This document shows positions 635-43,359 of a stretch of DNA of 64,000 bases, one piece after another; positions within the stretch are counted from its first letter, which is position 1; each line of letters begins with the position of its first letter. Origin of the DNA: Sporolactobacillus sp. THM19-2. GTDB lineage: Bacteria; Bacillota; Bacilli; Bacillales; Sporolactobacillaceae. The notes beneath the pieces are model-generated. The model had not been told where the DNA came from. It made no database searches and was given only the letters and a program-made list of their open reading frames with translations. The stretch covers positions 1 through 64,000 of the forward strand of contig NZ_SEMC01000013.1 in NCBI RefSeq assembly GCF_004153195.1, in the 5' to 3' direction. The position numbers and the translations under genes are program-made.

Positions 635-810
635 GGGCCATGAGGGGAAACGAACTGTCCCGGGCGGGGGATCACTGCCCGGAGATCCCGATGGGTTCAG
701 CGAACAATCAGTAAGGGATGGGCGCAGACAAAAAATGAGGGCGCCCTGACGTAACGCCTGCACGAGCACGTCCTGTGCGCCCGAAAAACCTTCACTGATT
801 GAAGTTTCAC
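635..810 (+). repeat. Dispersed intergenic hairpin repeat, copy A
   Basis: Begins GGGCCATGAGG and ends GAAGTTTCAC. It has two nested structures. The first is a short stem CCGGGC...GCCCGG at about 660-681. The second is a long hairpin whose outer arms are AATCAGT (706-712) and ACTGATT (794-800). Inside the long hairpin GGGCGCAG (720-727) can pair with CTGTGCGCCC (773-782). Related copies lie at 2657-2762 (minus), 32495-32607 and 43261-43359. No conserved reading frame is seen. The rest of this gap, to 983, holds no gene I can support. Confidence 0.8.
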
Positions 811-983
811 TTTATCTTTAAGACTCTATTATGACCTTATGAAACCTGAGTGGAAGGGCAAAACTTCCGCGGGATCCGGAAACCCGGGAGCGAGGATATC
901 GGGCGGGGAGGCTCACACTCTTGAGGGCAGCGGGTACCTGGTGCGAAAAAACGGACGGGTTTAACTGAGCTATTTTTACCTCT

Positions 984-1664
984 TCATCTTCCAGTCGTGA
1001 AACCGGTAGATTTTCTATTGAACATCCAGCCACAAAAGATGACAAGCAAAATCAGAATGACCGGGAGAAGATGTGCTGCATGAGGTAAGAGCGCAACCAC
1101 GTGTTCGAGTTTGGGTTCGCTGAGTATCATTTCTGATGCTGTATAAACCAGGACGGCACCGCCGCCGTATATCAGGATCGGGAGTTTCTCCATTGCGGTC
1201 AGAATAAGCTTACTGCCCCAGATAATAATCGGAACCGAAATGATTAATCCGATGGCAATATAGCCAATATGGCCTCTGGCAGCCCCGGCGATGGCCAGCA
1301 TATTATCAAGTCCCATAACGACATCAGCGATGACAATCGTACGTACGGCTCCGAAGAGGGAGGGCCCGGCTGTAATATGATGTTTCTCCTCTTTGCTTGT
1401 GATCAGGCGGAAAGCAATCATAATCAGAAAGAGGCCGCCGATAAACAGAAGGTAAGGAATGCTAAGTAATGAAACAATGATTGCCGTCAGGCTGATTCGA
1501 ACGAGGACAGCAAGACCGGTTCCGATAAGAATGGCTTTATTGCGCTGCTTCTCAGGGAGTTTCCGGCAGGCGAGTGCAATCACGATCGCATTATCGCCTC
1601 CGAGTATGATATCAATGAAGATGATCTTCATAATAAACAGCAGAACATCAGGCTCAAAGGGCAT
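984..1664 (-). CDS. TerC family integral membrane protein (YjbE-like)
   Basis: 226-residue polytopic protein with about seven hydrophobic segments. The family-defining acidic motifs inside membrane segments are present: GGDNA at residues 22-26 and MGLDN near 117-121. TerC proteins of Bacilli are implicated in manganese export and metalation of secreted proteins. The location between spx and mecA is that of B. subtilis yjbE. The ATG follows AAAGGAG. No yybP-ykoY type manganese riboswitch is recognisable upstream. The gene runs against its neighbours and is probably transcribed alone. Confidence 0.88.
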   Translation of the reverse strand: MPFEPDVLLFIMKIIFIDIILGGDNAIVIALACRKLPEKQRNKAILIGTGLAVLVRISLTAIIVSLLSIPYLLFIGGLFLIMIAFRLITSKEEKHHITAGPSLFGAVRTIVIADVVMGLDNMLAIAGAARGHIGYIAIGLIISVPIIIWGSKLILTAMEKLPILIYGGGAVLVYTASEMILSEPKLEHVVALLPHAAHLLPVILILLVIFCGWMFNRKSTGFTTGR

Positions 1665-1845
1665 GAATCAATACTCCTTTCTTCCATTCATTCCAGCCTA
1701 TGCACACTTGTCCCTGATCATGCCAGTGGCGTCATAGGGCACGCATATATCTGATGACATATTTCACTGAGAAGGGAAATAGGATGAAGCATGTGCAGCA
1801 CTTTTCGGGCAAATGTGGAAAATGCATCAGACCATGTGTTTTCTA

Positions 1846-1874
1846 TTTCAATCGTTACTGATTTATCATACAAT
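1846..1874 (+). promoter_or_regulatory. Putative sigma-A promoter of mecA
   Basis: TTTCAA (1846-1851) and TACAAT (1869-1874) are separated by 17 nt, about 77 nt upstream of the mecA start. The -35 is weak. Confidence 0.45.
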
Positions 1875-1950
1875 GAAAGTACAAGAAGGAAGTTGTCTCA
1901 TTGAAGATAGTCACTCCCCATGCCATTGAATTGAGAAGGGAGAGATAGCG

Positions 1951-2655
1951 ATGAAAATAGAAAGAATTAATGAAAATACCCTGAAATTTTATATCAGCTA
2001 TCTGGATATTGAAGATCGCGGATTTGATCGTGAGGAAATCTGGTATAACAGGGAAAGAAGTGAAGAACTGTTCTGGCAAATGATGGATGAGGCACACAGT
2101 CAGGAATCTTTTTCTCTCGAGGGACCTCTGTGGATACAGGTACAGGCATTAGAGAAGGGCATGGAGATCATTGTGACCCGCGCGCAGATTATGAAAAAAG
2201 GACTCACTCCTCAACTGCCTGAGCCTGCCGGCAACAGCCATGAAAAAGATCAGACTGAAAAGATCGATCAGCTGACAGATAAGCATTCTGCTGCCAGACA
2301 GGAACATATACCGGTGAACGGTGAAGGTAAAGAACATCTTTCAGAAGATGATTCGGAAGATCTGTCGTTTGTGTTTAACTTTAAAGAATTTGAAGATATG
2401 ATTTCACTCAGTCATGCTTTTAAGCCCCATCCGGGGACGGACATGGATCTCTATGTTTATCAGGGAAAGTACTTTCTAAATGTGACATTTTCTGATCAGC
2501 TTCCGGAAGAAGAGCAGGATGATGATCTGAGCCGGATTCTGGAATATGGACTTGAGAGTAACCTGACGGCAGCCATGCTTGAGGAGTATGGCAAAAAATT
2601 GATCAGTCAATCTGCGCTCCAGGTGATAAAAAAACATTTTTCCTTATTGAAATAA
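1951..2655 (+). CDS. mecA: MecA, adaptor protein for ClpC
   Basis: 234-residue adaptor that targets substrates such as the competence factor ComK to ClpCP and also stimulates ClpC assembly. The N-terminal substrate-binding domain (about 1-80) and the C-terminal ClpC-binding domain (about 125-234) are joined by a polar, low-complexity linker, as in the family. The start MKIERINENTLKFYIS is characteristic, and a good AGAAGGGAGAG lies before the ATG. It sits directly upstream of coiA, but about 360 nt and a repeat element separate them, so they need not be cotranscribed. Confidence 0.96.
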   Translation: MKIERINENTLKFYISYLDIEDRGFDREEIWYNRERSEELFWQMMDEAHSQESFSLEGPLWIQVQALEKGMEIIVTRAQIMKKGLTPQLPEPAGNSHEKDQTEKIDQLTDKHSAARQEHIPVNGEGKEHLSEDDSEDLSFVFNFKEFEDMISLSHAFKPHPGTDMDLYVYQGKYFLNVTFSDQLPEEEQDDDLSRILEYGLESNLTAAMLEEYGKKLISQSALQVIKKHFSLLK

Positions 2656-2656
2656 A

Positions 2657-2762
2657 GTGAAACTTCAAACGGTGCGGGTCTTCTTCATCTCCCCCTGATT
2701 GTTCTCTGAACCCACCGGTCGCTGCGGGCGGTTCCGGGCATGTTCGTTTATCCTCATGACCC
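2657..2762 (-). repeat. Dispersed intergenic hairpin repeat, copy C (degenerate)
   Basis: Read on the minus strand it starts GGGTCATGAGG, continues through GTGGGTTCAGAGAACAATCAG and ends GAAGTTTCAC, matching copies A and B. The right arm of the terminal hairpin has decayed (ACCGTTTG in place of ACTGATTG). It begins two bases after the mecA stop codon. The remainder of the gap to 3012 shows no gene. Confidence 0.75.
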
Positions 2763-3012
2763 TGAGGGGATACTGCCCGTTCGTGGAATAAATTTTCAGG
2801 CCGTTCGGCAGGATCGAAAAGACTTCCTGTCGAATTTTTTATGATCAGGATGTTTCTGTTCAGTCATACGGATCCGCTCGAGCTGTCCCCTGTTCTCCGC
2901 AAGCCCCGCCCGTCTCCGGTCTGCAGTCTTATTTCATGAATCTGTGCCATTTCGAGCCAGTCGTTGCTATTGAACAGGACACCTGATAATGATCAGTGGA
3001 AAGAGTGAGGCT

Positions 3013-4233
3013 ATGCTTGTCGCGCTTCGGGATAATGGACAGGTACTGTCCCTTGTTTCTTCCAGCCTCTCACGCCGGGAATTAATGATGATGCGTGACC
3101 GAGAAAATTTTAGCTGCCCGGTATGTGGTTCCCCTGTACGCCTGAAATTAGGCCTGCAGAAAAAATGGCATTTTTCCCACTACGCGAAAGATCAGTGTAT
3201 TGTGGAGTCAGAACCGGAGTCCGAGATACATCTGACAGGAAAATCTGATTTATTTAAGTGGACAAGGGATAATGGACATCAGGCGGAACTGGAATACTAT
3301 CTGAAGGAGATCCGCCAGCGTCCGGACATTTTTCTCCCGGGTATTCAGCCTGAAGCGATTGAGTATCAATGCAGTTCCATCACGGAAACAACCCTGTCGG
3401 ATAGAACAGCCGGCTACCGGCAACTCGGCATTCGCCCGGTCTGGATCATGGGCGGCTGTCGTAAAAAGAAAAAGGGCAGTTATCTGTCGCTGTCGGGCTT
3501 TGAGCCACTGACCATGGCTTATAACAGACAAGACGGTCATCCCTTTGTTTCATCCTATTTCGTCTGCTATTATTTTCCTTCAGAAAAGCTGCTCTGTTTT
3601 TCCGGGCATATTCATTCCATATCAAAAACACAATTTATTTCCGAGGAAATGTATATGCCCTTACAGCAGATCAGACCTTTCCATCTGATCAGGCCGGTGC
3701 TGCCTTTTCATCCTTCTTCTTTTATGGAAAAATGGGTGCATTATAAAAGAAGACAGCGACTCCATGTATCGGCACATACGACGGAGTCAGAAATGTTATT
3801 GCGTGTGCTGGCTTATCAGATGAGGAGCAATTATGCTTATTTTCCGGCCTTCGTCGGCATTCCACATGAACATTATGTCCATCTCTCTTCGCCGCCCCAT
3901 CTGTGGCAAATGTGGATCTATCTGATCATGAGCGGAAACCGCAGGCTATGGGTCACACCGGAATACCTGATCCACAGATCCGGAGGAGAAAAAGTTAAGT
4001 GTTTCTTAAGAAGGAGACAACTGCCGTTATGTCCGCAAATTTCTTTAAAAACAATAATAAAAACGTATCTGAATCAGCTTGTTTTTCTCAACGCAGTAAG
4101 GGAGAAGGAGGGGGCATATCAGCTGAAGGATGAAGCGATCCATGTTGCGCATGATATGGACAGGCTCCTTCAGAGAGATGCCGCCGTCCTGAAAGCTCTT
4201 TCTGAACGGCCTGATCCTTCACCTGTGCCGTAA
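3013..4233 (+). CDS. coiA: CoiA, competence protein
   Basis: 406-residue competence protein needed for processing transforming DNA in Gram-positive bacteria. A treble-clef-like segment CPVCGSPVRLK followed by WHFSH lies in the N-terminal part. A restriction-endonuclease-like core follows: an acidic region around ESEIHLTGKSDLF, then RPDIFLPG and AIEYQCS, the expected D and ExQ catalytic pattern. I prefer the ATG at 3013 (preceded by AGTGAGG) to the upstream in-frame ATG at 2989, which lacks a ribosome site. Adjacency to mecA matches B. subtilis. Confidence 0.9.
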   Translation: MLVALRDNGQVLSLVSSSLSRRELMMMRDRENFSCPVCGSPVRLKLGLQKKWHFSHYAKDQCIVESEPESEIHLTGKSDLFKWTRDNGHQAELEYYLKEIRQRPDIFLPGIQPEAIEYQCSSITETTLSDRTAGYRQLGIRPVWIMGGCRKKKKGSYLSLSGFEPLTMAYNRQDGHPFVSSYFVCYYFPSEKLLCFSGHIHSISKTQFISEEMYMPLQQIRPFHLIRPVLPFHPSSFMEKWVHYKRRQRLHVSAHTTESEMLLRVLAYQMRSNYAYFPAFVGIPHEHYVHLSSPPHLWQMWIYLIMSGNRRLWVTPEYLIHRSGGEKVKCFLRRRQLPLCPQISLKTIIKTYLNQLVFLNAVREKEGAYQLKDEAIHVAHDMDRLLQRDAAVLKALSERPDPSPVP

Positions 4234-4319
4234 ATCCGTGAATCACTTTACGGACTGGATAAAAATGGAGTACGATAAAAGAAATACCTGATGAGGATAA
4301 GTGCAATGGAGGTGCCGAC

Positions 4320-6134
4320 ATGGCCAGTCAAAGTACAACAGAACTCCCGAAAAGAGAGGACGTACCCATTAAAGAAAAATGGGATCTGGAAGCTATTTAT
4401 CCCAATATTGAGGCATGGGAAGCTGCTTTCAGCAAAGTAAAAGAGTTGATTGGGGAAGTCGAGTCCTATAAGGGGAAAGCCGGCCAGTCTTCAGCAAACC
4501 TGTTTGCCCTGTTGAAAAAGCAGGATGAACTGACTGAATTATTATATAAAGTTTACGTCTACGCGCATATGAAAAACGATGAAGACACTGCAAACCCGAC
4601 CTTTCAGGCACTCCATGACCGTGCCGGAAATCTTGCCACGGTTGCCGGAAGTCGTCTGGCTTTTATCGTCCCGGAAATATTAGCTATTAATCCGGAAAAA
4701 CTGAAAGAATTTATCGCGACAAATAAGGATTTGCAGCTTTATAAACATGCCATTGAGGAAATTACACGCACCCGTCCGCATGTTCTCGACGCGGAAAAAG
4801 AAGCCTTACTGGCAGCAGCCGGTGATGTCGCAGATGCCTCATCAACGACGTTTGGAATGCTGAATAATGCGGATCTGAAATTCCCGAAAATTAAGGATGA
4901 AAAGGGTAATGAGACAGAAATTACCCATGGTCGATACGGACGGTTTATGGAAAGTGATAACCGCAGGGTGAGAAAAGATACATTTGAAGGCATCTACCAG
5001 ACGTATGGGTCTTTTAAAAATACGCTCGCGTCGACACTCAGCGGACAGATCAAAAGAGATAATTTCTATGCTCAGGCGAGACACTACAGAACAGCAAGGG
5101 AGGCTGCCCTGTTCAGTAACAACATTCCTGAAAAGGTATATGATAATTTAATCGCTGTCGTCCATAAAAATCTGCCTCTGATGTACCGCTATGTCGCTCT
5201 GCGGAAAAAAGCGCTGAAACTTGATGAGCTCCATATGTACGATCTATATGCACCGCTTGTTCCGGATGTGAAGATCAAAGTGACCTACGATGAAGCTCAG
5301 GATATCGTTCTAAAAGGTCTTGCTCCTCTTGGCGAGGATTATCTGGATGTCATCAGGGACGGCTTTAAAAAACGCTGGATCGACGTCCGTGAAACACAAA
5401 ATAAAAGAAGCGGAGGCTATTCAGGGGGAAGCTACGGGACAATGCCTTACATTCTGCTTAACTGGCAGGACAATTTGAACAGTGTCTTCACGCTTGCCCA
5501 TGAACTTGGGCACTCCATGCACAGTTATTATTCCCGGACGAATCAGCCATACCCTTATTCGGATTATTCGATTTTTGTTGCAGAGGTGGCTTCAACATGT
5601 AATGAGGCACTGCTTAATTATTACCTGCTCCATCACACGGAGGATAAAAAGAAGAAACTCTTTCTGCTGAATCATCAGCTGGAGGGATTTAAGGCCACCG
5701 TGTTCCGGCAGACGATGTTTGCGGAGTTTGAACACTTGATTCATGAGAAAGCGCGCGAAGGGGTCGCGTTAACCGCAGATTTTCTGACAAACCAATATTA
5801 TGATCTGAATAAAACTTATTTTGGTTCAGGTATCACGGTTGATAAACAGATCGGACTCGAGTGGGCAAGAATCCCTCATTTTTACTATAATTACTACGTA
5901 TACCAGTACGCCACGGGATACAGTGCCGCTTCAGCGCTTTCCAGTCAGATCCTGAATGAAGGCGCCCCTGCGGTGTCACGGTATAAGGATTATCTGAAGT
6001 CGGGAAGTTCTGATTACCCGATTGAAGTCTTGAAAAAAGCGGGAGTAGATATGACAGATCCCCGGCCCATTCAGCAGGCCATGGATCACTTCGCAAAAGT
6101 TCTTGATGAAACAGAATCATTAATGTTTCAATGA
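4320..6134 (+). CDS. pepF: Oligoendopeptidase F (M3B metallopeptidase)
   Basis: 604-residue cytoplasmic zinc peptidase that cleaves short oligopeptides. The zinc site HELGH is at residues 394-398 and the third ligand E422 lies in the following helix (EVAST), the spacing expected for family M3. GGAGGTG precedes the ATG. Length is typical for PepF. It follows coiA as in B. subtilis, and overproduced PepF is known to affect sporulation signalling there. A strong terminator follows. Confidence 0.96.
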   Translation: MASQSTTELPKREDVPIKEKWDLEAIYPNIEAWEAAFSKVKELIGEVESYKGKAGQSSANLFALLKKQDELTELLYKVYVYAHMKNDEDTANPTFQALHDRAGNLATVAGSRLAFIVPEILAINPEKLKEFIATNKDLQLYKHAIEEITRTRPHVLDAEKEALLAAAGDVADASSTTFGMLNNADLKFPKIKDEKGNETEITHGRYGRFMESDNRRVRKDTFEGIYQTYGSFKNTLASTLSGQIKRDNFYAQARHYRTAREAALFSNNIPEKVYDNLIAVVHKNLPLMYRYVALRKKALKLDELHMYDLYAPLVPDVKIKVTYDEAQDIVLKGLAPLGEDYLDVIRDGFKKRWIDVRETQNKRSGGYSGGSYGTMPYILLNWQDNLNSVFTLAHELGHSMHSYYSRTNQPYPYSDYSIFVAEVASTCNEALLNYYLLHHTEDKKKKLFLLNHQLEGFKATVFRQTMFAEFEHLIHEKAREGVALTADFLTNQYYDLNKTYFGSGITVDKQIGLEWARIPHFYYNYYVYQYATGYSAASALSSQILNEGAPAVSRYKDYLKSGSSDYPIEVLKKAGVDMTDPRPIQQAMDHFAKVLDETESLMFQ

Positions 6135-6147
6135 TACATGAACATGT

Positions 6148-6179
6148 AAAAAAGATCCGTGTTATTCGGATCTTTTTTT
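6148..6179 (+). terminator. Terminator of pepF
   Basis: Stem AAAGATCCG / CGGATCTTT with a 7-nt loop (6160-6166) ends in a T run. Confidence 0.92.
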
Positions 6180-6185
6180 AAACCC

Positions 6186-6353
6186 TTATTCATTCTTTTG
6201 TTTCCACGTGATGAGTCTGATAAAAAGAAACAGGAACAGAAAGAATAAACCGCCTGTCAGAATTAATGATTCAAGGTGCAGAAGTCCCAGTAAATAGTGA
6301 TAAAAGCAGAAACCGAGGATCAGGATGAGGACGAATACAGCAGTATAGCGCAT
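6186..6353 (-). CDS. Small membrane protein (55 aa), YizD position
   Basis: A 55-residue ORF beginning MRYTAVFVLIL and ending TWKQKNE, with two hydrophobic stretches separated by a short LHLES segment. GGAGGG lies 7 nt before the ATG. It sits between pepF and spxH on the spxH strand, the position held by the small gene yizD in B. subtilis. I infer correspondence from position only. It begins 46 nt downstream of the spxH stop and could be cotranscribed with spxH. Function unknown. Confidence 0.65.
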   Translation of the reverse strand: MRYTAVFVLILILGFCFYHYLLGLLHLESLILTGGLFFLFLFLFIRLITWKQKNE

Positions 6354-6399
6354 GTGAATCCCTCCGACGTATATGCTTTTATTAAAACAAGCTTACGTC

Positions 6400-7302
6400 T
6401 TATCCGTTTGTAATATACCTCCAGTATTCACCGCTTTTAATTGTGACGGGTTCAATAATCTGAAGGAGCTGCATTTTTCGCAGTTCTTTCAATGCTTTCT
6501 CCTCACTCCAGTCATAGACAACAGCGACTTCCGGGGTTGTGAGATAGAGCTGTAGTCTGAAATACTCTGACAGCGGCGGGTGTGGGGCGGGATTCGGTGT
6601 GTAGCCGAGCAGATCTTCCAGGATCTGGACATAGACGTCATAATCATACTGTCCGCTTATTTTAATGGCTTCATCATCAGTGCAGAGATTGGTAAAGAGG
6701 AGTGCAGGAAGCTCAGTAATGGACATCTCATTTGCGAGGCGCCGGTCCGCCTGAAGGGCTTTAATTGAACGGCAGGAGTGAAAGTCGTTGGAAAACTCTT
6801 CCACATTCAGCTTAGCGAGTCTGGCGACATCCTGCAGTTCTTCAAACCTGTTCAATCCCTTTTTTTCAAGAAAGACCTGCTCGCGGATTCTGCGCAGGAA
6901 ACGATTTCCGGCCGTAGAACCCTGAAATTCCGCAGCTTTAATGGCTATAGCGATAGCGTAGGGTGACGGCGGGTTTTCAAGCCATACATTACTGTCACAG
7001 CACATACCCGTCATGTGGGCACATTTATCCCATGATTCAGCCATTTTTTTTACCTGTGAAAACTGATATTGATTTGCCGTGTCATGTTTCGTTGTCAGTA
7101 CCGCACGTAGTTTAAAATAATCATGATATTCTAAAATGAACTTTTTCATTGCCGGCTCCAGGCCCCAGCACTCGGGGCATAGAGGATCGATAAATTCCAG
7201 AATCTCAATACATGGATCATGTTTATCTGAATGAATACCGCTGGAACAAGTCATGTTTCCGGGTGACCCTTCACAAAATGATCGGTTTTTGTGTAATCTC
7301 AT
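6400..7302 (-). CDS. spxH: SpxH (YjbH), adaptor for ClpXP proteolysis of Spx
   Basis: 300-residue DsbA-like thioredoxin-fold protein that binds Spx and speeds its degradation by ClpXP. The hallmark DPLCPECWGLEP is at residues 39-50, with C42 and C45 as the CxxC. The middle helical domain and the C-terminal tail follow the B. subtilis protein. A cysteine- and histidine-rich N-terminus (C10, C19, H24, H28) resembles the zinc-binding N-terminus of known SpxH. GAGAGGTG precedes the ATG. Together with spx at 140 it completes the regulator-adaptor pair. Confidence 0.93.
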   Translation of the reverse strand: MRLHKNRSFCEGSPGNMTCSSGIHSDKHDPCIEILEFIDPLCPECWGLEPAMKKFILEYHDYFKLRAVLTTKHDTANQYQFSQVKKMAESWDKCAHMTGMCCDSNVWLENPPSPYAIAIAIKAAEFQGSTAGNRFLRRIREQVFLEKKGLNRFEELQDVARLAKLNVEEFSNDFHSCRSIKALQADRRLANEMSITELPALLFTNLCTDDEAIKISGQYDYDVYVQILEDLLGYTPNPAPHPPLSEYFRLQLYLTTPEVAVVYDWSEEKALKELRKMQLLQIIEPVTIKSGEYWRYITNG

Positions 7303-7640
7303 CGGATGTCACCTCTCGAATCATTTTTAACGCGTGCATCCTGTTTGTATTCATTTTTAGTCAAGCCAACCTGCCTTTTTGCATAAATCTTTTTTGCTGA
7401 CAGATCCTGTGGGCCATTGATCTTATGGGAAAAAGTACCCGAATGGTCCGGCTCACTGATCTTCAGGCTTTCTATATTGTAACAAGAGTCCATGTCCCGG
7501 GGCAACTATTGAGGACTGAAGGAGGGCTCTCTGCTTTGCTCCTGATCCTGCCGGATACCCTGCTCTTTTAGTTTACCCCGAAATCACAAGAAGAGACAAA
7601 GGACATGGGACTCTTTAACCAGTCACCTTATCAAAAAGGG
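7303..7640. other. Intergenic stretch without supported gene
   Basis: A 68-codon minus-strand ORF overlaps the start of spxH but has no ribosome site and no recognisable protein. B. subtilis carries yjbI (truncated haemoglobin) near here; no trace of it is seen. Confidence 0.5.
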
Positions 7641-7668
7641 TTGAAAGGCACTGGAAAAGTGTTATAAT
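7641..7668 (+). promoter_or_regulatory. Putative sigma-A promoter of the YitT-family gene
   Basis: TTGAAA (7641-7646), 16-nt spacer, TATAAT (7663-7668), about 27 nt before the first possible start. Confidence 0.7.
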
Positions 7669-7694
7669 TTGAGACCCGGGCGACCGGTTAAAAG

Positions 7695-8764: not shown

Positions 8765-8769
8765 CATCC

Positions 8770-32400: not shown

Positions 32401-32494
32401 ACAATAGCATCCTGATCAATCCCGGTCCGGGTCAGAAAACGGGCCGGATTATTTTCCTGCATGCATTTATCCCGCATTAACGGGCAGTAAGACA

Positions 32495-32607
32495 GGGCCA
32501 TGAGGGTAAACGAACTGGCACCGGGTGGGGGTAACTGCCCGCAGCTGCCTGATGGGTTCAACTAACAATCAGTGGGGTATAAAGCTCCCCCACTGATTAA
32601 AGTTTTC
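32495..32607 (+). repeat. Dispersed intergenic hairpin repeat, copy B (compact form)
   Basis: Starts GGGCCATGAGGG. The terminal hairpin is perfect: AATCAGTGGGG (32567-32577) with CCCCACTGATT (32588-32598), 10-nt loop, then AAAGTTTTCC. It sits between convergent genes and reaches to within a few bases of the YetF-like stop codon, so it could act as terminator for both sides. It lacks the long internal insert seen in copies A and D. Confidence 0.82.
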
Positions 32608-32608
32608 C

Positions 32609-33292
32609 TTATTCTGAACGAGACTGGACAAAAAGGCCTTCTTCCTTTGTCCATTCGGCAATCATCACGTCTTCAGGCTTATCAATGTTCAGTCGTTTCA
32701 GTTCCTGATTCAGCCACGCTTCACTCTTTCCTGCCCGACTCAAATTTCGTTTGATCACGATCCCGTCACTGATCAGCGTTATCGGAAGGGTAACGGAACG
32801 GGCAGGCAGATCAAGATCGCGGCGTGTCGCCTGATCTAATTCCGGTTTTTTAATGATTGATACTTTTCCATTAGGTTCAAGAACGGCGAATTGAACTTCT
32901 TTTATAGAAAAGATATTTCGATCACGGAGCAGCATCTGCAAATGATTTATATCTACTTTATTTTTTTTCAGTTCCTGTCTGTTGATCTTGCCGTTACTGA
33001 TGACGAGTGCAGGCTGACTCTCGAAGAAACCGCGGGAAAGATGGAATTTTAAGGTGATAAAATCGATCAGAAAAATGAGCACGCCCCAGAAGAAAATAGC
33101 AAACAGGATTTTGATGATATGCGTTTCAGGATCATATATTGCACCGCTGACGAAGTCGCCGACAACGATCATGGAAATAAAATCAAAAGGTGTGGCTTCC
33201 GACATGGATGCCCTGCCCATCACCTTTGTCAATAAAATCAACCCGAATAATCCCACACTAAGTTCAATCATGATGGATCCGAACGACTCCAA
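32609..33292 (-). CDS. DUF421 / YetF family membrane protein
   Basis: 227 residues. Two to three N-terminal membrane helices (with LTKVMGRASMSEATPFDFISMIVVGD) are followed by a soluble YetF domain (FFESQPALVISNGKINRQELKK, then LRDRNIFSIKEVQFAVLEPNGKVSII). Several paralogues occur in Bacillus, some affecting spore germination; the biochemical role is unknown. TTG start at 33292 with GGAGGG 9 nt upstream; ATG 33271 is an alternative. Confidence 0.85.
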   Translation of the reverse strand: MESFGSIMIELSVGLFGLILLTKVMGRASMSEATPFDFISMIVVGDFVSGAIYDPETHIIKILFAIFFWGVLIFLIDFITLKFHLSRGFFESQPALVISNGKINRQELKKNKVDINHLQMLLRDRNIFSIKEVQFAVLEPNGKVSIIKKPELDQATRRDLDLPARSVTLPITLISDGIVIKRNLSRAGKSEAWLNQELKRLNIDKPEDVMIAEWTKEEGLFVQSRSE

Positions 33293-35650: not shown

Positions 35651-35663
35651 GGTGATCGGATAA

Positions 35664-35860: not shown

Positions 35861-36098
35861 GCTGTGGTCCCTTCCTTTCACCGTCCCTGAGTTCTGTTAT
35901 GAGAAGTAAGGCTGCATGCTTATTGGGTCAGGTCAGATCACCTTCCGGGTTCACGCCGGATACGGTAACAGTTATCTATTCGCGGGGCTGCACGGATTGC
36001 TGTCACTGAGGGGCTCAGCCTTCCAGAAGACCCGTTTAAATATGTCTGATTCACACCGAGTAAATTTTACGAAATAACAGATCAACTGTCTACTTGTT

Positions 36099-36115
36099 TG
36101 TTATATGATCTAACA
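36099..36115. promoter_or_regulatory. TnrA/GlnR box 1
   Basis: TGTTA-TATGATC-TAACA fits TGTNA-N7-TNACA exactly. It lies 49 nt upstream of the -10 of the tnrA promoter, measured centre to end about -50, a distance typical for activation. Confidence 0.8.
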
Positions 36116-36142
36116 AGGTTCTTGTTAATCCGGACGTTTTGA

Positions 36143-36159
36143 TGTAATATAATCTTACA
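36143..36159. promoter_or_regulatory. TnrA/GlnR box 2, containing the tnrA -10 hexamer
   Basis: TGTAA-TATAATC-TTACA fits TGTNA-N7-TNACA exactly and encloses TATAAT (36148-36153). Binding here should block RNA polymerase, so repression by GlnR or TnrA is expected. Confidence 0.8.
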
Positions 36160-36201
36160 AATCAGAATTTCGAAAAAAAAAGAATCTGTGGAGGAGATAA
36201 A

Positions 36202-36534
36202 GTGGCTAACCACTCTAAGAAGGACGCCTATCTGTTTAAGAAGGTCATTACTATCGGGACAGTTTGTGAACTGACAGGTTTGAGCGAGCGCCAGATTCGT
36301 TACTATGAGAAGCGGAAATTAATTTTCCCTGAACGATCAGACCGCGGAAACAGAAAATATTCCTTCTCCGATGTTGAAACACTGATGGATATAGCCAATA
36401 AAATGGAGGATGGGATGCAGACATCGGAATTACGTAAGGAAATGCAGAAGAAAGAAAACAAAAAGGTAGACAGTAAACTGAGGGAAAGGATGATTCGCGG
36501 CCAGCTGAACGCCTATTTTAATAAACGGGACTGA
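36202..36534 (+). CDS. tnrA: TnrA, nitrogen-limitation transcription regulator
   Basis: 110-residue MerR-type regulator. The DNA-binding part (ITIGTVCELTGLSERQIRYYEKRKL, then RGNRKYSFSDVETLMDIANK) is followed by a short C-terminus ending RGQLNAYFNKRD, the segment that binds feedback-inhibited glutamine synthetase in TnrA. Length equals B. subtilis TnrA and is shorter than GlnR. GTG start after GGAGGAGA. Two perfect TnrA/GlnR boxes upstream support autoregulation. It stands alone, not next to glnA, which also favours TnrA over GlnR. Confidence 0.92.
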   Translation: MANHSKKDAYLFKKVITIGTVCELTGLSERQIRYYEKRKLIFPERSDRGNRKYSFSDVETLMDIANKMEDGMQTSELRKEMQKKENKKVDSKLRERMIRGQLNAYFNKRD

Positions 36535-36537
36535 ACG

Positions 36538-36562
36538 ATCCGGCAGTGGCCGGATTTTTTTT
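36538..36562 (+). terminator. Terminator of tnrA
   Basis: ATCCGGC / GCCGGAT with 4-nt loop and eight T. Confidence 0.93.
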
Positions 36563-36712
36563 GTCAGAAAGAGGATGATGATGCAGAAATTTTCCAGTCA
36601 TGTAAAAATCAGTGGGTTATTCACAAATTATTCATAAAACGTACATAGAAGAGTCATAATTATTTGCGGAAACCGGCTTAGATTCATACCGGGGAAGTTG
36701 TAAAGTAATAAG

Positions 36713-36728
36713 TGTGACAGATGTTACA
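36713..36728. promoter_or_regulatory. FNR/CRP-like palindrome before cydA
   Basis: TGTGA-CAGATG-TTACA differs from the FNR consensus TGTGA-N6-TCACA by one base. Its centre is about 80 nt before the cydA start. No fnr gene is in view, so function is uncertain. Confidence 0.45.
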
Positions 36729-36801
36729 TTTACAGGTGTTCAATTATTTAACCGTTTACATGTCTTCCTAACTTAATTTAAAAGAGAGAAGGGACGTATG
36801 T

Positions 36802-38205
36802 ATGGATGTCTTAAGCCTGGCTAGATTTCAGTATGCGGCAACGACTATCTTTCATTTCTTTTTCGTACCGCTGTCCATCGGGCTTGTACTGATTGTCTCA
36901 ATCATGGAGACGATGTATGTCGTCAAGAAAAATCCGGTTTATAAGAAAATGGCTCAGTTCTGGGGGAAACTGTTTTTGATCAACTTCGCAATAGGTGTTG
37001 TAACGGGGATTCTTCAGGAATTTCAGTTCGGCATGAACTGGTCGGAATACTCCCGGTTCATGGGTGATGTATTCGGTGCGCCGCTGGCTATTGAGGCGCT
37101 GCTTGCCTTCTTCATGGAGTCAACATTTATTGGCATCTGGCTTTTCGGCTGGGATCGTCTTTCAAAAGGCGCGCATCTGGCGTGTATCTGGCTTGTGACC
37201 GCTGGAACCACGCTCTCAGCACTGTGGATTCTCACAGCAAACTCTTTTATGCAGCATCCCGTCGGATTCACCATTAATAATGGGCGGGCGGAGATGAACG
37301 ATTTCTTCGCGTTGCTGGCCAATCCTCAGCTTTGGGTGGAATTTCCGCACACTGTATTCGGATCCTTTGCGACGGGTGCTTTTGTTGTCGCGGGAATCAG
37401 CGCGATTGTCCTGCTCAGGAAGAAACATATTGATTTCTATAAGAAATCATTCAAAATCGCTATTGTAATCGGTCTGATTTCGAGTCTGGCGCTCACCTTT
37501 TTCGGTCATTTTCAGGCGCAGTATCTCGTACAGACACAGCCTATGAAGATGGCTGCGAGTGAAGCGCTCTGGAAGGACAGCGGAGATCCGGGAGCGTGGA
37601 CCGTAACGGCTTCAATTGATCCAAAGAATCATGAGAATTCAGCTGAAATAAAAATTCCTTATCTGCTCAGCTATCTGTCCTATGGTAAATTCAGTGGAAG
37701 TGTAAAAGGGATGGAAAGCCTGCAAAAACAGTATGTTGAAAAATACGGCGAGGGCAACTATATTCCTCCTGTGCGGACGACCTTCTGGAGCTTCCGCATT
37801 ATGACCATAATGGGCGGCATTCTGTGCCTCCTGGCTATTATCGGCGCCATTCTTGCCTGGAGAAACAAACTGGTTAAGAGCAGATTCTTCCTGCACTGCA
37901 TGGTCGCCTCGATTGCTGTTCCGTTTATCGGTGGGACGATGGGCTGGATCATGACAGAAATTGGACGTCAGCCATGGACGGTATTTGGTTTCATGCAGAC
38001 GGCAGCGAGCGTATCGCCAAATGTTTCAGCCGGTGCCCTGCTTTTTTCGATCATTGCGTTTATGAGTATGTATACCATTTTGGCTGTTGTTATGATTTAC
38101 CTGTTTGCTCGTGTCATTAAACAGGGACCATCACTGGATAATAAAGAAACGGTTCAGTCGAATGATCCATTTGACGGGGAGGGATATCACGTTGTCACTC
38201 AATGA
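36802..38205 (+). CDS. cydA: Cytochrome bd ubiquinol oxidase subunit I
   Basis: 467-residue membrane subunit carrying haems b558, b595 and d. Haem ligand H18 is in TTIFHFFFVPLSIGL, the second histidine in EFPHTVFGSF, and the methionine-containing GRQPWTVFGFMQTAASVSP region is present. The quinol-binding loop is short, as usual in Bacilli. First gene of cydABCD; the end overlaps cydB by 14 nt. High-affinity terminal oxidase for low oxygen. Confidence 0.96.
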   Translation: MDVLSLARFQYAATTIFHFFFVPLSIGLVLIVSIMETMYVVKKNPVYKKMAQFWGKLFLINFAIGVVTGILQEFQFGMNWSEYSRFMGDVFGAPLAIEALLAFFMESTFIGIWLFGWDRLSKGAHLACIWLVTAGTTLSALWILTANSFMQHPVGFTINNGRAEMNDFFALLANPQLWVEFPHTVFGSFATGAFVVAGISAIVLLRKKHIDFYKKSFKIAIVIGLISSLALTFFGHFQAQYLVQTQPMKMAASEALWKDSGDPGAWTVTASIDPKNHENSAEIKIPYLLSYLSYGKFSGSVKGMESLQKQYVEKYGEGNYIPPVRTTFWSFRIMTIMGGILCLLAIIGAILAWRNKLVKSRFFLHCMVASIAVPFIGGTMGWIMTEIGRQPWTVFGFMQTAASVSPNVSAGALLFSIIAFMSMYTILAVVMIYLFARVIKQGPSLDNKETVQSNDPFDGEGYHVVTQ

Positions 38206-39205
38206 GCTGTGGTTTATACTGATTGCTGTTCTGTTCGTCGGTTTTTTCTTTCTGGAAGGTTACGATTTTGGTGTGGGCATGGCGACGCGGTTTGTTGCCA
38301 GAGATCAGCTGGAAAGACGCATTATGGTCAATACGATCGGACCGTTCTGGGATGCTAATGAGGTGTGGCTGATTACGGCCGGCGGGGCGATGTTCGCCGC
38401 TTTTCCCAACTGGTATGCCACATTATTCAGCGGGTTCTATATTCCGCTCGTGGTCATGCTGCTGCTTCTGATCGCCCGGGGTACGGCATTCGAATTTCGC
38501 GCCAAGGTCGCGCATCCAAAGTGGACCGGGACGTGGGACTGGGCCATTTTTATTCCCAGCCTGCTCGTGCCCTTCCTCTGGGGCGTTGTCTTCTCAGCAC
38601 TCGTTTATGGCCTGCCTATTGACAGTAAGATGAATATGCATGGTGTGTTTACAAGCTTCGTCAATCCGTACACCGTGCTCGGCGGGGTCCTGATTACGCT
38701 CCTTTGCCTTTATCATGGTCTGGTCTACCTGTGCCTGCGTACGGATGAAGACATTCAGGCACGGGCACGGAGCCTTGCCAAAAGGCTTTTCTGGGTGCTT
38801 GCCGCAGCTGCTGTTGCCTTTATCGTCGTTTCATTCTTTGTGACTGACATCTTTGAACTCAGAGGCGCCTTGCTGTATCCGATTTATGCGGTCGATGTCC
38901 TGGCGCTTATCCTGTCCGCCGTCTTTCTGTCGAAAAAGCGTGACGGCTGGGCATTCGGCATGAACGTCGGTGTGATCCTTCTGACCGTCGGATCTCTCTT
39001 CATCGGACTTTTCCCGAGAGTCATGATCAGTAACATCAATCCGGCTAATAATCTGACCATCTACAATGCAGCTTCCGGTTCCTATTCTCTGACGGTTATG
39101 ACGATTGTCGCACTGACGCTTCTGCCATTCGTTATCGGCTATTCGATCTGGAGTTATTATGTATTCAGAAAGAGAGTCACGAAGAAGGAAACCTTACAAT
39201 ATTAA
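38192..39205 (+). CDS. cydB: Cytochrome bd ubiquinol oxidase subunit II
   Basis: 337 residues with about eight membrane segments. N-terminal LNELWFILIAVLFVGFFFLEGYDFGVGM and WDANEVWLITAGGAMFAAFP are diagnostic. I assign the TTG at 38192, preceded by GGAGGGAT, since the upstream in-frame ATG at 38105 would add 29 residues overlapping cydA. Overlap with cydA indicates coupling. Confidence 0.95.
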   Translation: MSLNELWFILIAVLFVGFFFLEGYDFGVGMATRFVARDQLERRIMVNTIGPFWDANEVWLITAGGAMFAAFPNWYATLFSGFYIPLVVMLLLLIARGTAFEFRAKVAHPKWTGTWDWAIFIPSLLVPFLWGVVFSALVYGLPIDSKMNMHGVFTSFVNPYTVLGGVLITLLCLYHGLVYLCLRTDEDIQARARSLAKRLFWVLAAAAVAFIVVSFFVTDIFELRGALLYPIYAVDVLALILSAVFLSKKRDGWAFGMNVGVILLTVGSLFIGLFPRVMISNINPANNLTIYNAASGSYSLTVMTIVALTLLPFVIGYSIWSYYVFRKRVTKKETLQY

Positions 39206-39235
39206 ATCAGAATCAGATAGAAAGGACGTGAACGC

Positions 39236-39298
39236 TTGGCCATCCTGACATCCAGCACGGGTTTTTGCCAAGCATGTCTATGGATCGCGATATATTAA
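39236..39298 (+). CDS. Possible 20-residue leader ORF overlapping the cydC start
   Basis: TTG at 39236 has the only good ribosome site in the cydB-cydC gap (AAAGGACGTG, 5-10 nt upstream). Its frame runs 20 codons and stops at 39296-39298, 16 nt beyond the cydC ATG in another frame. The arrangement would couple cydC translation to the leader. It could instead reflect an ancient frameshift at the cydC 5' end. Confidence 0.35.
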   Translation: MAILTSSTGFCQACLWIAIY

Positions 39299-41013
39299 CT
39301 TATCCTGGTGCCAGGCGTCTCTTTGTCTCAGCAGCTTTTCTGACTTTAATCGAAGGGCTGTGTATTATCGGCCAGGCTGGGCTGTTAGCCGGTCTTGTGT
39401 CCGATCTTTTTACAGGACGATCGATTTCTTCAATGGGCAATCAGATCGTTCTTTTTTTTATTGTTCTGGCGATCAGGCATCTGTGTGTCTTAACGATTAA
39501 ATCTCTTTCTTTTCGCTTTGCTGAGCGCACCAGTAAGTCGATGCGGAAAAGGTTCCTGAACAGATTATTTTTCACAGGATCGGAACAGATCAGAACAGGC
39601 GGATCCGGGACACTTGTCACGCTGACCCTTGAAGGCGTGGCGCAGGTGCGTCATTACCTGGAGCTGTTTATTCCAAAAATCGTTGCGAACGGGATCCTGC
39701 CGCTGATGATTCTGGTCTATGTCCTGACAAAAGACTGGCTGTCCGCTTTAATCCTTTTTCTGACCATGCCTGTTCTGATTATCTTTATGATTCTGCTCGG
39801 ACTCGCCGCGCAGAAAAAGATGGATGACAGGTGGGCTTCTTACCGCGTGCTGTCCAACCACTTTCTGGATTCGCTTCGCGGACTGCCGACCCTGCGCTAT
39901 CTGGGACTTGGAAAAATTCATGCCAAAACCATTGAGAGAGTCAGTGATAAATACAGAAAAATGACGATGGGGACGCTGAAACTTGCTTTTCTTTCCTCAT
40001 TTGCACTTGATTTCTTTACCATGTTGTCTATAGCTTTTGTCGCTGTTGCTCTGGGTCTCCGGCTGATTGACGGGCATATATTACTCGAGCCGGCGCTCAC
40101 TGTACTAATTCTGGCCCCTGAATATTTTACGCCTGTCCGTGAACTCGGGCAGGACTACCATGCGACTCTGGACGGGAAGGAAGCTGCTGAAAAAATCAAT
40201 CATATCGCCCCTCAGCAAGAAAAAGAAGAGACGACAGGGGAAGAGGCCAGTGCCGACCGGTGGCAATGGTCGGATCACGCGATTCTGAAACTAAATGAGG
40301 TCTCGGCGGTTTATCAGGACAGCAACGGGAAAAAGGCACTGAATGATATCTCTTTTTCCGCACGGGGTGATGAAACCATCGGGATCATTGGATCCAGCGG
40401 GGCGGGGAAGTCGACTTTAATTGATGTCATCGGTGGTTTTCTGGCCACGGCATCCGGTCATATTGAAGTCAATGGCGTACCTGGATCATTTGCTTCAGGA
40501 GCCTGGAGAAAACAGGTGACCTATATTCCCCAGCATCCCTATATTTTTAGCGCCTCCCTTGGCGAAAATGTCGCCTTTTATCAGCCGGATGCATCCGGAA
40601 ACCAGATCCGGGAGGCTGTTCGCGCCGCCGGACTGGATCAGCTGGTGAAGGAATTTCCGGGCGGGCTTGATGAGAAGATTGGCGCAGGCGGAAGGCCATT
40701 AAGCGGTGGCCAGGAACAGCGGGTCGCTCTGGCACGGGCTTTTCTATGTAACCGGCCGGTTCTGCTGCTTGATGAACCCACTGCTCATCTCGACATTGAA
40801 ACTGAGTATGAACTGAAACAGACGATGATCCGTTTATTCAAAGGGAAACTTGTATTGATGGCAACACACAGACTGCACTGGATGGATCAGATGGACCGTA
40901 TTCTGGTCATTGACAGGGGCCGGATTGTTGAATCCGGGCCGCAGGATGAGCTGATCCGCAAAAATGGTGTGTACACCCGTCTGGTACGGTCACAATTGGA
41001 GGGACAATCATGA
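39280..41013 (+). CDS. cydC: ABC transporter CydC, cytochrome bd assembly
   Basis: About 577 residues: six-segment membrane domain (to about 310), then nucleotide-binding domain with Walker A GSSGAGKST, signature LSGGQEQRVALARA and Walker B PVLLLDEPTAHLD. CydCD exports cysteine/glutathione-type thiols or handles haem needed for bd oxidase maturation. ATG 39280 gives MDRDILTYPGARRL, matching known N-termini, but has no ribosome site of its own (see leader ORF). Naming follows Bacillus order. The end overlaps cydD (ATGA). Confidence 0.9.
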   Translation: MDRDILTYPGARRLFVSAAFLTLIEGLCIIGQAGLLAGLVSDLFTGRSISSMGNQIVLFFIVLAIRHLCVLTIKSLSFRFAERTSKSMRKRFLNRLFFTGSEQIRTGGSGTLVTLTLEGVAQVRHYLELFIPKIVANGILPLMILVYVLTKDWLSALILFLTMPVLIIFMILLGLAAQKKMDDRWASYRVLSNHFLDSLRGLPTLRYLGLGKIHAKTIERVSDKYRKMTMGTLKLAFLSSFALDFFTMLSIAFVAVALGLRLIDGHILLEPALTVLILAPEYFTPVRELGQDYHATLDGKEAAEKINHIAPQQEKEETTGEEASADRWQWSDHAILKLNEVSAVYQDSNGKKALNDISFSARGDETIGIIGSSGAGKSTLIDVIGGFLATASGHIEVNGVPGSFASGAWRKQVTYIPQHPYIFSASLGENVAFYQPDASGNQIREAVRAAGLDQLVKEFPGGLDEKIGAGGRPLSGGQEQRVALARAFLCNRPVLLLDEPTAHLDIETEYELKQTMIRLFKGKLVLMATHRLHWMDQMDRILVIDRGRIVESGPQDELIRKNGVYTRLVRSQLEGQS

Positions 41014-42779
41014 AAGAATGGTTTGTACCTTATGCACAGAAACATTGGAGAGGGCTCGTTCTTTCAGCCGTTCTGATGTTCTTCGCACTCTTTTGTGCAG
41101 CCGGACTGCTCTTTACATCCGGGTACCTGATTTCAAAAGCGGCCCTTCAGCCGGAAAACATCCTGATGATTTATGTTCCGATTGTGGGTGTCCGTGCTTT
41201 CGGGATTTTCCGTGCGGTCTTCCAGTATGCCGGGCGCCTGACCAGTCACAGTACCATCCTGCGCATTCTTTCAGAAATGCGTATCAGACTGTATCACTGT
41301 CTTGAACCTGCGGCCCTGTTTATCCGGTCGAGGTTTCGTACCGGAGATCTGTTAGGTGTGCTTTCTGATGATATTGAGCATCTTCAGGATATTTTTCTCA
41401 GAACCGCACTGCCAGGGGGAACGGCCCTTCTGATTTATGCGCTGTGGATTGGCTTTCTCGGCTGGTTTGACCCGGTCTTTGCGATTCTTCTGGGCTTATA
41501 TTTTCTGATTTTACTGGTCGTTTTTCCCCTGGTCTCACTGATGTGGGCCGGGAAGGCACATAAACGCTTATCAGGAATCAGGCACGGGCTGTATGACAAA
41601 CTGACTGATGCCGTTCTCGGCGCGGGTGACTGGATGATGTCCGGCCGTCAGAAGGATTTTATCAGCAGTTATGAGGGACTGGAAAATCAGTCCATGCTCG
41701 TCACGAGACGCCTGAACCAGATCAAGATCTGGCGTGACTTTGTCTGTCAGCTGCTGATCGGACTGGCCGTTATTTTTCTCTTGATATGGTCCGGACATAT
41801 GGCGTCTGGCGGGCATATGCAGTCCACACTGATCGCTGCATTTGTCCTGGTGACGTTTACCATATCAGAATCATTTGTCCCGGTTTCAGAGGCAGTTGAA
41901 CGTCTGCCGCAATACAGGGAGGCTTTTACAAGACTCTCTAAAGTGGATAAAAGGGATCCGGATCTCCCCTCAGTTGCGGACAGTCAGCCTGTCCGGCCGG
42001 ATATGCGCGAAATAGTCATTGAGGCGAACCATGTCTTTTATCGGTATAAGAAAAAGGACGAATGGGCACTGCAGGATCTCTCCTTTCGTATCGGGCAGGG
42101 TGAGCGCGTCGCATTAATCGGGAGAAGCGGGGCAGGAAAGACGACCTTGATTCATACCATTTACGGAGCGCTCAGACCGTCCAGAGGATCTCTGACGCTC
42201 AATGGGGTACTTGCATACCGGTTTGGCGACAACATGTCGGAGTATATTGCTGTACTGGATCAGAACCCGCATCTCTTTGATACGTCAGTCCGGAATAACC
42301 TTGCTCTGGGTAATGAGCAGGCGACTGAAGAAGAACTCGTACAGGCAGCCAAGGCAGTCGGGCTGCATGAGCTTATTGAGCAGTTACCGAAAGGGTACCG
42401 GACGCAGATGCACGAAGCCGGATCGATTTTTTCCGGCGGAGAACAGGAGCGCCTGGCCCTGGCACGAATTCTGCTGAAACAGACGCCAGTCGTCATTCTT
42501 GATGAACCGACTGTGGGGCTTGATCCGATCACGGAGAAAAAGCTGCTGCAGACGATATTTTCAACTTTGAAAGGGAAAACGTTGATCTGGATTACCCATC
42601 ATCTGACAGGGGCTGAAAAAATGGATCAGATTTTCTTCATGGAAAACGGGCGATTCTGTATGAAAGGGGATCACCGTCATTTAATGAGGACGTATCCAAG
42701 ATACCGCCGGCTCTATCAGCTGGATGTTCCGGATCATTTAAAACACATGCTTGATGCGTCATTTAATGAGGACATATGA
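41010..42779 (+). CDS. cydD: ABC transporter CydD, cytochrome bd assembly
   Basis: 589 residues, half-transporter partner of CydC: membrane domain to about 320 (with GYLISKAALQPENILMIYVPIVGVRAFGI), Walker A GRSGAGKTT, a slightly degenerate signature FSGGEQERLALARI and Walker B PVVILDEPTVGLD. GGAGGG is 10 nt before the ATG. Last gene of cydABCD, closed by a terminator. Confidence 0.92.
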   Translation: MKEWFVPYAQKHWRGLVLSAVLMFFALFCAAGLLFTSGYLISKAALQPENILMIYVPIVGVRAFGIFRAVFQYAGRLTSHSTILRILSEMRIRLYHCLEPAALFIRSRFRTGDLLGVLSDDIEHLQDIFLRTALPGGTALLIYALWIGFLGWFDPVFAILLGLYFLILLVVFPLVSLMWAGKAHKRLSGIRHGLYDKLTDAVLGAGDWMMSGRQKDFISSYEGLENQSMLVTRRLNQIKIWRDFVCQLLIGLAVIFLLIWSGHMASGGHMQSTLIAAFVLVTFTISESFVPVSEAVERLPQYREAFTRLSKVDKRDPDLPSVADSQPVRPDMREIVIEANHVFYRYKKKDEWALQDLSFRIGQGERVALIGRSGAGKTTLIHTIYGALRPSRGSLTLNGVLAYRFGDNMSEYIAVLDQNPHLFDTSVRNNLALGNEQATEEELVQAAKAVGLHELIEQLPKGYRTQMHEAGSIFSGGEQERLALARILLKQTPVVILDEPTVGLDPITEKKLLQTIFSTLKGKTLIWITHHLTGAEKMDQIFFMENGRFCMKGDHRHLMRTYPRYRRLYQLDVPDHLKHMLDASFNEDI

Positions 42780-42780
42780 A

Positions 42781-42816
42781 AAATGCCCGGCTGGTTTCAG
42801 CCGGACATTTTTTTTA
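42781..42816 (+). terminator. Terminator of cydABCD
   Basis: AAATG-CCCGGCTG / AGCCGG-CATTT hairpin with T run. Confidence 0.88.
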
Positions 42817-42821
42817 GGCGA

Positions 42822-42998
42822 TCAACAAACGAAAGCCGCGCCTACAATGATTAACAGGATGAACAGAACCACAATCAGCGCGAAGCTGTTACCGCAGGAT
42901 ACCCCGCCTACCGGGTATTGAGGTTTACAGCCACAGCTGTCCCCATAGCCGCCGTAAGCCTGGTTGGACGGATAGCCGCCAAAACCAAAGTTGCCCAT
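42822..42998 (-). CDS. YjcZ family sporulation small protein
   Basis: A 58-residue ORF: a glycine/tyrosine-rich start (MGNFGFGGYPSNQAYGGYG), several cysteines (CGCKP), then a C-terminal hydrophobic helix NSFALIVVLFILLIIVGAAF and a terminal cysteine. The hydrophobic tail is the hallmark of YjcZ/YczM-type proteins, several of which are made during sporulation. AAAGGAG precedes the ATG. Convergent with cydD. Confidence 0.85.
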   Translation of the reverse strand: MGNFGFGGYPSNQAYGGYGDSCGCKPQYPVGGVSCGNSFALIVVLFILLIIVGAAFVC

Positions 42999-43260
42999 TC
43001 AAGTCACTCCTTTACCAAGTGATATGATATTCTATGATGTCCCCGGGTATTTGGCGATGAAAAATAACATCTCCGGGAAGAGATGTGCGGACGCCCAGAT
43101 GCATCTGTGTAAAGGAAAGACATCGATACTGAAGAAGTACGGCACTTTTGGGGATACTTGCGACGCGCTTCGATAAGCGAGGCAGAGCTTGCTGCGATTT
43201 ACCCCGGGCTCGTTCCGGAACCGTTTTAGCAGTGCCTTATTGTCTGATTATAGATGGAGC

Positions 43261-43359
43261 TTAACTGTCTGCAGCAGCCCAATGGGTTTAACTGATAATC
43301 AATGCGGGATGCGCGCAGGCTAAAAACAAGGGCGTCCTGTGCGCTCGAAAAGCCCTCAC
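43261..43359 (+). repeat. Dispersed intergenic hairpin repeat, copy D (partial)
   Basis: Matches copy A from its middle (AATGGGTTTAACTGATAATCA) through the internal insert (GGGATGCGCGCAG, AAGGGCG, TCCTGTGCGC-TCGAAAAGCC). The left third and the terminal ACTGATT arm are missing or decayed. Confidence 0.65.

Follow-up and report, generated by a model that had tools for sequence, protein, structure and literature searches.

A non-coding interspersed repeat of approximately 150 bases lies between genes in the first 64,000 nucleotides of contig NZ_SEMC01000013.1 of Sporolactobacillus sp. THM19-2 (assembly GCF_004153195.1), the stretch of DNA referred to here as the window. The element is of a known kind, probably the one to which bcr1 of Bacillus cereus belongs, and its range of hosts is unexpected. 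What is new here is that its left half resembles, in sequence, the ends of ISEfa4-like insertion sequences (IS) of the IS200/IS605 family. The explanation preferred, with a probability of about 0.55, is that the repeat is a non-coding interspersed element of the bcr1 kind and is related, as a non-autonomous form, to IS200/IS605 elements, with their ISEfa4-like branch the closest.

Copies in the window

An initial annotation of this region had described four copies of one family, of which copies 1 to 3 are true members and copy 4 is a decayed right half carrying a cassette (Table 1). Copy 4 is without the left half, GGGCCATGAGGG, AAACGAAC and the terminal GAAGTTTCAC, and it is absent from the list of matches to R1, the covariance model of the repeat, at E ≤ 0.001. 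The sequence blocks said to be shared are exact in copies 1 and 3 only; copy 2 keeps AAACGAAC and otherwise has the variant blocks GGGTCATGAGGA, GGTGGGTTCA and AACAATCAGG, and copy 4 has AATGGGTTTA and GATAATCAATG. Similarly, the common terminal sequence GAAGTTTCAC is found in copies 1 and 2, whereas copy 3 ends in AAAGTTTTCC and nothing of the sort is present in copy 4. The left ends originally given for copies 1 to 3 fall 29–30 bases short of those defined by R1 and the flanking TTTAT.

When copy 3 was used as a DNA query against the genome of the window (G000), there were 43 matches, the best other match having an E value of 1.6e-28, and the repeat family of copies 1 to 3 is far from chance. 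There was no match between Rfam and the window at gathering scores, nor between Rfam and copy 3 up to E 1.

Table 1. Copies of the repeat in the window and associated cassette, with the evidence for each
Feature	Position	Strand	Evidence
Copy 1, full element flanked by TTTAT at 606-610 and 811-815	606..815	+	R1 607-814, E 5.0e-19
Hairpin-rich cassette in the right-end hairpin loop of copy 1	722..783	+	Gap between left- and right-end hidden Markov model (HMM) matches
Copy 2, full yet diverged, TTTAT on both sides	2652..2792	-	R1 2653-2791, E 1.6e-15
Copy 3, single full element, left TTTAT, right end decayed	32466..32612	+	R1 32467-32611, E 5.3e-25
Copy 4, decayed right half and cassette	43261..43359	+	By eye in sequence

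Structure and covariation

A full copy consists, in order, of TTTAT, about 10 bases, a helix P1 around a nested helix P2, a linker containing GATTGGTTCAACTAAC, a right-end hairpin in which AATCAGTGGGGG is paired with CCCCCACTGATT, then GAAGTTTCAC and TTTAT. In P1 an example of the pairing is ACGGGCAGT with ACTGCCCGT, and in P2 it is CCCCCACCT with AGGTGGGGG. The 40 best matches in genome G164 span 150–163 bases, and copies bearing cassettes, which are located mainly after GCCCGAT or in the loop of the right hairpin, reach approximately 220. Neither end of the element is an inverted repeat of the other; its features are two subterminal hairpins and a fixed pentamer.

The fold is supported by covariation, compensatory stem changes having been named beforehand as a test of the initial annotation. 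R1 was built from an alignment of 36 hand-chosen rows (34 of 49 listed copies, with 15 omitted, and 2 more), and the structure was predicted from the same 36 rows that were used for the covariation count. Within it 96.3% of cells pair, and both partners have changed in 12 of 21 pairs (P1 4/7, P2 2/3, right hairpin 6/11), several of those in the right hairpin coming from one copy in the genome of the window, L008:1607-1763 (L numbers being named loci), in which both arms are rewritten. None of 500 shuffles reached any of the observed values, and slid structures pair in 28–47% of cells. The sequence of P1 varies among genera, with both sides of the helix changing together.

Recurrent forms of approximately 50 bases (L051, L052, L090, and L103 6553-6604) have the two ends only, joined at a common C-run, as if the middle had been lost between short repeats. 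In L067, L068, and L086, a long cassette holds the GATTGGTTCAACTAA motif of the repeat once more in inverted orientation, generating a larger hairpin.

Cassettes in the named loci (such as L043, L033, and L077) contain hairpins with ACAGGAYGT-like loops that resemble CsrA sites, 10 of 14 being on the strand opposite the repeat. Of the hairpins of this kind, 14 of the 24 detected in the named loci and 4 of the 10 in the stretches of genome G006 are in or near repeats. The genome of the window has 29 such hairpins and G018, which belongs to the same species and is assembled as one contig, has 14, none of them in or near a repeat, so that the likeness to CsrA sites is given as a side observation. 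There is one match to CsrA in the genome of the window, where a strict test for CsrA-type hairpins found none within the repeats themselves. The cassettes of the window are at approximately 722-783 and 43300-43355.

TTTAT at the ends of the repeat

In the genome of the window, 35 of the 52 left ends and 44 of the 58 right ends carry the pentamer TTTAT. The corresponding counts in G018 are 33 of 48 and 38 of 52, and in the named loci 103 of 130 left ends have it. The named stretches were retrieved with an exact 23-base right-end pattern, and their right ends therefore look more conserved than they are. Tandem copies have one TTTAT in common between units, and the right-hand TTTAT may belong to the end of the element itself.

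Some copies at non-tandem sites begin directly in the T-run behind a terminator-like hairpin (6/48 in the genome of the window, 3/43 in G018, and 12/111 in the named loci). Control TTTAT sites gave 85, 88, and 77 per 3000, respectively, and since these controls were not confined to intergenic DNA no claim is made on insertion beside terminators.

Distribution among genomes

At E ≤ 0.001, R1 has 75 matches in the genome of the window, at least three being opposite-strand readings of the same place, and 80 in G018, at least four being echoes of this sort. At E ≤ 1e-4, the repeat is present in 8 of 26 genomes of the family to which the window belongs, with 70 matches in the genome of the window, 72 in G018, 97 in G006, 104 in G023, and at least 115 in G024, followed by 11 in G005, 3 in G008, and 1 in G002. 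It was not found with R1 at the same threshold in 13 other genomes of the genus, and the distribution between related genomes is nearly all-or-none. The many genomic copies that had been expected are thus present, as dozens of interspersed matches, far above the four first seen; together with the TTTAT ends, the covariation and the patchy distribution, these bear out the original suggestion of a non-autonomous mobile element or a structured RNA repeat.

Across the class Bacilli, with stricter filters and E ≤ 1e-6, the repeat is in 45 of 398 genomes; counted by genus, 24 of 145 have it. The exact right-end pattern is found in at least 120 stretches from Bacillus-like genera, the hosts among the matches listed including Niallia, Cytobacillus, Peribacillus, Lysinibacillus, Sporosarcina, Oceanobacillus, Natronobacillus, Ornithinibacillus, and Terrilactibacillus. 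No species label of the B. cereus group is among the matches listed, though some are labelled just "Bacillus sp.", and there is no B. cereus group record among the repeat matches in the plasmid and phage collections.

Klebsiella grimontii plasmid pNY3A (CP079755.1) has a short element of the family flanked by TTTAT beside a CPBP protease gene (L222 1473-1564), either through transfer from the Bacilli or because the record is misassigned. In G018, subtraction of 8 second tandem copies and opposite-strand echoes from the 80 matches leaves 72 places, of which 47 lie beyond 1.6 Mb of the 3.22 Mb contig, the density of the repeat being almost double in one half.

Copies and arrays within the species

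Of 74 element places in the stretches taken from the genome of the window, 52 have both flanks in the stretches fetched from G018 and 22 are not comparable. The two genomes are alike at 45 of the 52, differ in length at 6, and at the remaining one, called empty by the script, G018 retains a 41-base remnant, such that there is no clean empty site among the 52. Array size differs at four sites. Where the genome of the window has copy 3 alone, G018 has three copies in tandem; at two other sites the genome of the window has two copies against one in G018, and at the fourth it has one against two. In the two contracted arrays of G018, the single copies are chimaeras of the two copies in the other genome, as expected from recombination between neighbouring copies. 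The absence of a clean empty site, with changes in arrays only, makes the repeat look old and static, or dormant, in this species.

Similarity to the ends of ISEfa4-like elements

The likeness of P1/P2 to left ends of IS200/IS605 elements was first noticed by eye in the ISEfa4-like loci L168 and L191 while reading transposase flanks. Relatives were then fetched from Alkalihalophilus, Priestia, Paenibacillus, Bifidobacterium, and Enterococcus plasmids, ISEfa4 being the annotation on the Enterococcus matches. L168 and L191 prompted the lead, and the other four left ends below were fetched later. The similarity tests drew upon 87 copies of the repeat, those 145–165 bases long among 111, with 25 of these used in comparisons of whole copies, all 87 in the controls against each end's own altered forms, and 40 in the half-by-half z scores.

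Against the left half of the repeat, ISEfa4-like left ends have z scores of 2.8 (L401), 0.5 (L402), 4.0 (L403), 5.7 (L168), 8.4 (L191), and 3.4 (L408), and right ends have scores of 3.9, 6.9, 1.8, 1.3, and 5.6 (n=5, L408 being represented by its left end). Among controls against the left half, eight ends of other IS200/IS605 types scored -0.9 to 1.3 and the ISEfa4-like sequences reversed scored -1.4 to 2.3. The left ends against the right half of the repeat scored -0.1, 5.0, 2.6, 0.1, 0.6, and 0.2, in the same order of loci. Taken half by half, the scores indicate that it is mainly the P1/P2 part of the repeat that resembles both ends of the IS. In an earlier run with whole copies, 8 of 10 ISEfa4-like ends had z ≥ 2.2, with nine controls at -0.8 to 0.9, and with all 87 copies 8 of the first 10 ends exceed their own reversed, complemented, and reverse-complemented forms. 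The best alignment, between the left end of L191 and a copy in L145, is colinear across P1, P2, and P1'. The ends of the Bifidobacterium elements are altogether different in appearance.

A match to an ordinary IS end had been proposed as a refutation of the initial annotation. The repeat is not an IS end as such, but it has this likeness to the ends of ISEfa4-like IS. With boundaries set by eye, ISEfa4-like copies start after TTTAAC (5/5) and end in GGGTAGTTCAC (5/5), near to the GAAGTTTCAC of the repeat. They share with it a left-end hairpin, a nested-helix plan (judged by eye), similar sequence, an end in ...GTTCAC, and a T-rich target. Unlike the repeat, they carry tnpA and mostly tnpB too, their target is TTTAAC, there is no second, right-hand copy of the target, and their right-end hairpin does not resemble the AATCAGTGGGG stem.

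A second IS200/IS605 type, in which 3 of 4 copies start directly after TTTAT, is present in the repeat carriers G018, G023, and G024 but not in the genome of the window. The TnpA proteins of this second type fall into one clade (support 98/99). Group A IStrons, of the CdISt1 type, are IS605-like. According to the part of PMC4227781 that deals with them, their insertions follow TTGAT, ATTAT, or TTTAT, without target duplication.

Candidate transposases and replication strand

The single Y1 transposase match in the genome of the window is an IS200-type tnpA. No RAYT gene was found there, which leaves a RAYT-type transposase rejected as the mover, and RAYT-like matches, judged by score and length with two placed in the tree, are in genomes with and without the repeat alike. 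The IS200/IS605 element of the two genomes of the species was rejected as a parent, its ends being unlike those of the repeat. Autonomous composite elements were also rejected, as the genes between seven element pairs look ordinary by eye.

Over all copies there is no replication-strand bias (48:47 in G006 and 39:33 in G018). The counts were split at 100 bits after a lagging bias was spotted among the best G006 copies, and copies below this score lean the opposite way (42:31 in G006 and 33:19 in G018). One G006 place and four G164 places near the terminus are omitted from the strand counts, and G085, with 6 strong copies, was unused. Strand bias was rejected as proof of single-strand transposition, since the independent genome G164 shows the opposite bias.

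Origin and movement of the repeat

The repeat has features of the IS200/IS605 type, namely subterminal hairpins without terminal inverted repeats and insertion 3' of a short T-rich target; non-inverted ends, two subterminal hairpins, and a fixed pentamer are the layout of IS200/IS605 elements. The similarity of the ends and the type of target are suggestive of membership in this family. Descent from ISEfa4-like elements would have left the left-end hairpin (P1/P2) and the right-end hairpin, with the transposase genes gone. The folded single strand would then be bound by a Y1 (HUH) transposase acting in trans, which would cleave at TTTAT, the T-rich pentamer, and join the element to the 3' side of a TTTAT elsewhere. 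Since TTTAT closes most copies, the end of one copy could accept the next, and recombination between adjacent copies might make and reshape the tandem arrays. The family, its fold, its TTTAT ends, the arrays and the likeness to ISEfa4-like ends are observed here, whereas the descent from such elements, the enzyme and the single-strand route are inferred.

Several observations weigh against this derivation. The lead was spotted by eye before testing, and the similarity between the IS and the repeat is not cleanly colinear. The right ends of the IS score 3.7, 3.5, 0.2, 0.3, and 1.7 against the right half of the repeat, mostly below their left-half scores, and the left end of L402 matches the right half (z 5.0) and not the left (0.5). 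Two of the first 10 ends and all three added ends fail at least one of their own controls, and the z of 3.4 for the L408 (Enterococcus) left end was obtained only when its window was shifted and the comparison confined to the left half of the repeat. R1 scores L168 at just E = 1.1, and the full HMM of the repeat has no match in L168 or L191. The presence of TnpA does not track that of the repeat, there being a Y1 match in 23 of the 26 family genomes and the repeat in 8. Of the 29 proteins placed in the tree, those of the ISEfa4-like TnpA type come only from G006, which has the repeat, and G025, which does not. No autonomous copy was seen: the genes enclosed by two long left-right pairs of the named loci and by five close pairs of the window's genome look ordinary by eye, without a family search. 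The strand bias conflicts, being lagging for 30 of 42 in G006 and G018 together and leading for 39 of 52 in G164. TTTAT stands on both sides of the repeat, and IS200/IS605 elements make no target duplication. Membership in IS200/IS605 is in part contradicted by this two-sided TTTAT and is unaided by the strand-bias test.

Such two-sided TTTAT, present once between tandem units, would suit a repeat moved by a site-specific recombinase or another enzyme acting at TTTAT, its likeness to IS200/IS605 being convergence in hairpin composition. This is possible but rather unlikely, as the ISEfa4-like similarity exceeds that of shuffles and, for most ends, of reversed controls that preserve the hairpins. 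Furthermore, the two contracted G018 arrays are chimaeric and not exact TTTAT-to-TTTAT excisions, and no candidate recombinase gene was seen by eye in the seven element pairs.

The strong covariation would also fit a structured RNA with a role in regulation or stability, kept by selection and spread by duplication, and in the part of PMC3446304 on transcription 84 of 165 and 62 of 155 bcr repeats (all 18 families) in two B. cereus strains lie within mRNA. However, covariation is expected equally of a folded DNA strand, and the TTTAT ends, the tandem arrays, the lack of the repeat from 13 other genomes of the genus, the cassette insertions, and the forms of about 50 bases speak against an RNA that is maintained in this way, making it improbable. 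On the evidence, a mobile DNA element is the better reading than an RNA gene. That this is a classical miniature inverted-repeat transposable element (MITE) of a DDE transposase, as might be thought from its short, non-coding nature, its high copy number, and the terms MITE or MITE-like applied to bcr1 in passages of PMC3733652 and PMC3446304, is very improbable given that its ends are not inverted repeats of each other and that the apparent duplication does not vary, being TTTAT in most copies. An IS with transposase genes and these ends as inverted repeats was not seen either.

Relation to known elements and significance

The preferred explanation, a non-autonomous IS200/IS605 relative of the bcr1 kind, can be compared with other short repeats. 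PATEs (palindrome-associated transposable elements) are non-autonomous relatives of IS200/IS605, and if the derivation holds the repeat is like them in being short, with palindromic ends and no genes, differing in that no close autonomous partner has been identified. It is like the REP/REPIN-RAYT systems in its many hairpin repeats and in a suspected Y1-type enzyme, but it ends in TTTAT and not, as read from the alignment, in GTAG/CGTC tags. A literature search for non-autonomous IS200 relatives in Bacillus yielded no paper on such elements, judged by titles and the opening of abstracts.

In an abstract of 2004, bcr1 is said to be approximately 155 bp long with TTTAT in each end. The likeness to it is drawn from published descriptions, and the repeat is probably of the same kind, being interspersed and non-coding, about 150 bp long and folded, associated with TTTAT, numbering tens of copies in a genome, and similar to a mobile element in behaviour (passages in PMC6542083, PMC2267715, and PMC3446304). 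In those passages, bcr1 is tied to TTTAT, has 39 copies in a strain on average, with mobility like site-specific recombination suggested (PMC6542083), is 147–167 bp in size (PMC2267715), and is MITE-like and partly transcribed (PMC3446304). The passages on bcr1 name no transposase, and those in PMC6542083, PMC8725734, and PMC3733652 do not derive it from IS200/IS605. It is there described as specific to the B. cereus group, whereas the repeat reported here is in many genera outside that group.

It is a highly speculative extension that bcr1 and its relatives in the Bacilli would all be stripped IS200/IS605 elements, with folded ends that TnpA would still recognize in trans and that TnpB-type proteins might recognize as RNA, such that each copy could serve as a small guide-RNA gene for its own insertion site. 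If true, the part of this concerning stripped IS200/IS605 elements would settle how bcr1 moves.

Should the repeat be of the same family as bcr1, then the range of that family is far wider than described and it is probably old, with compensatory changes specific to genera. The similarity of the ends would point to a concrete enzyme family, and the nearly all-or-none pattern within one genus, with at least 70 matches in some genomes and none in others, makes the gene responsible findable by comparative genomics.

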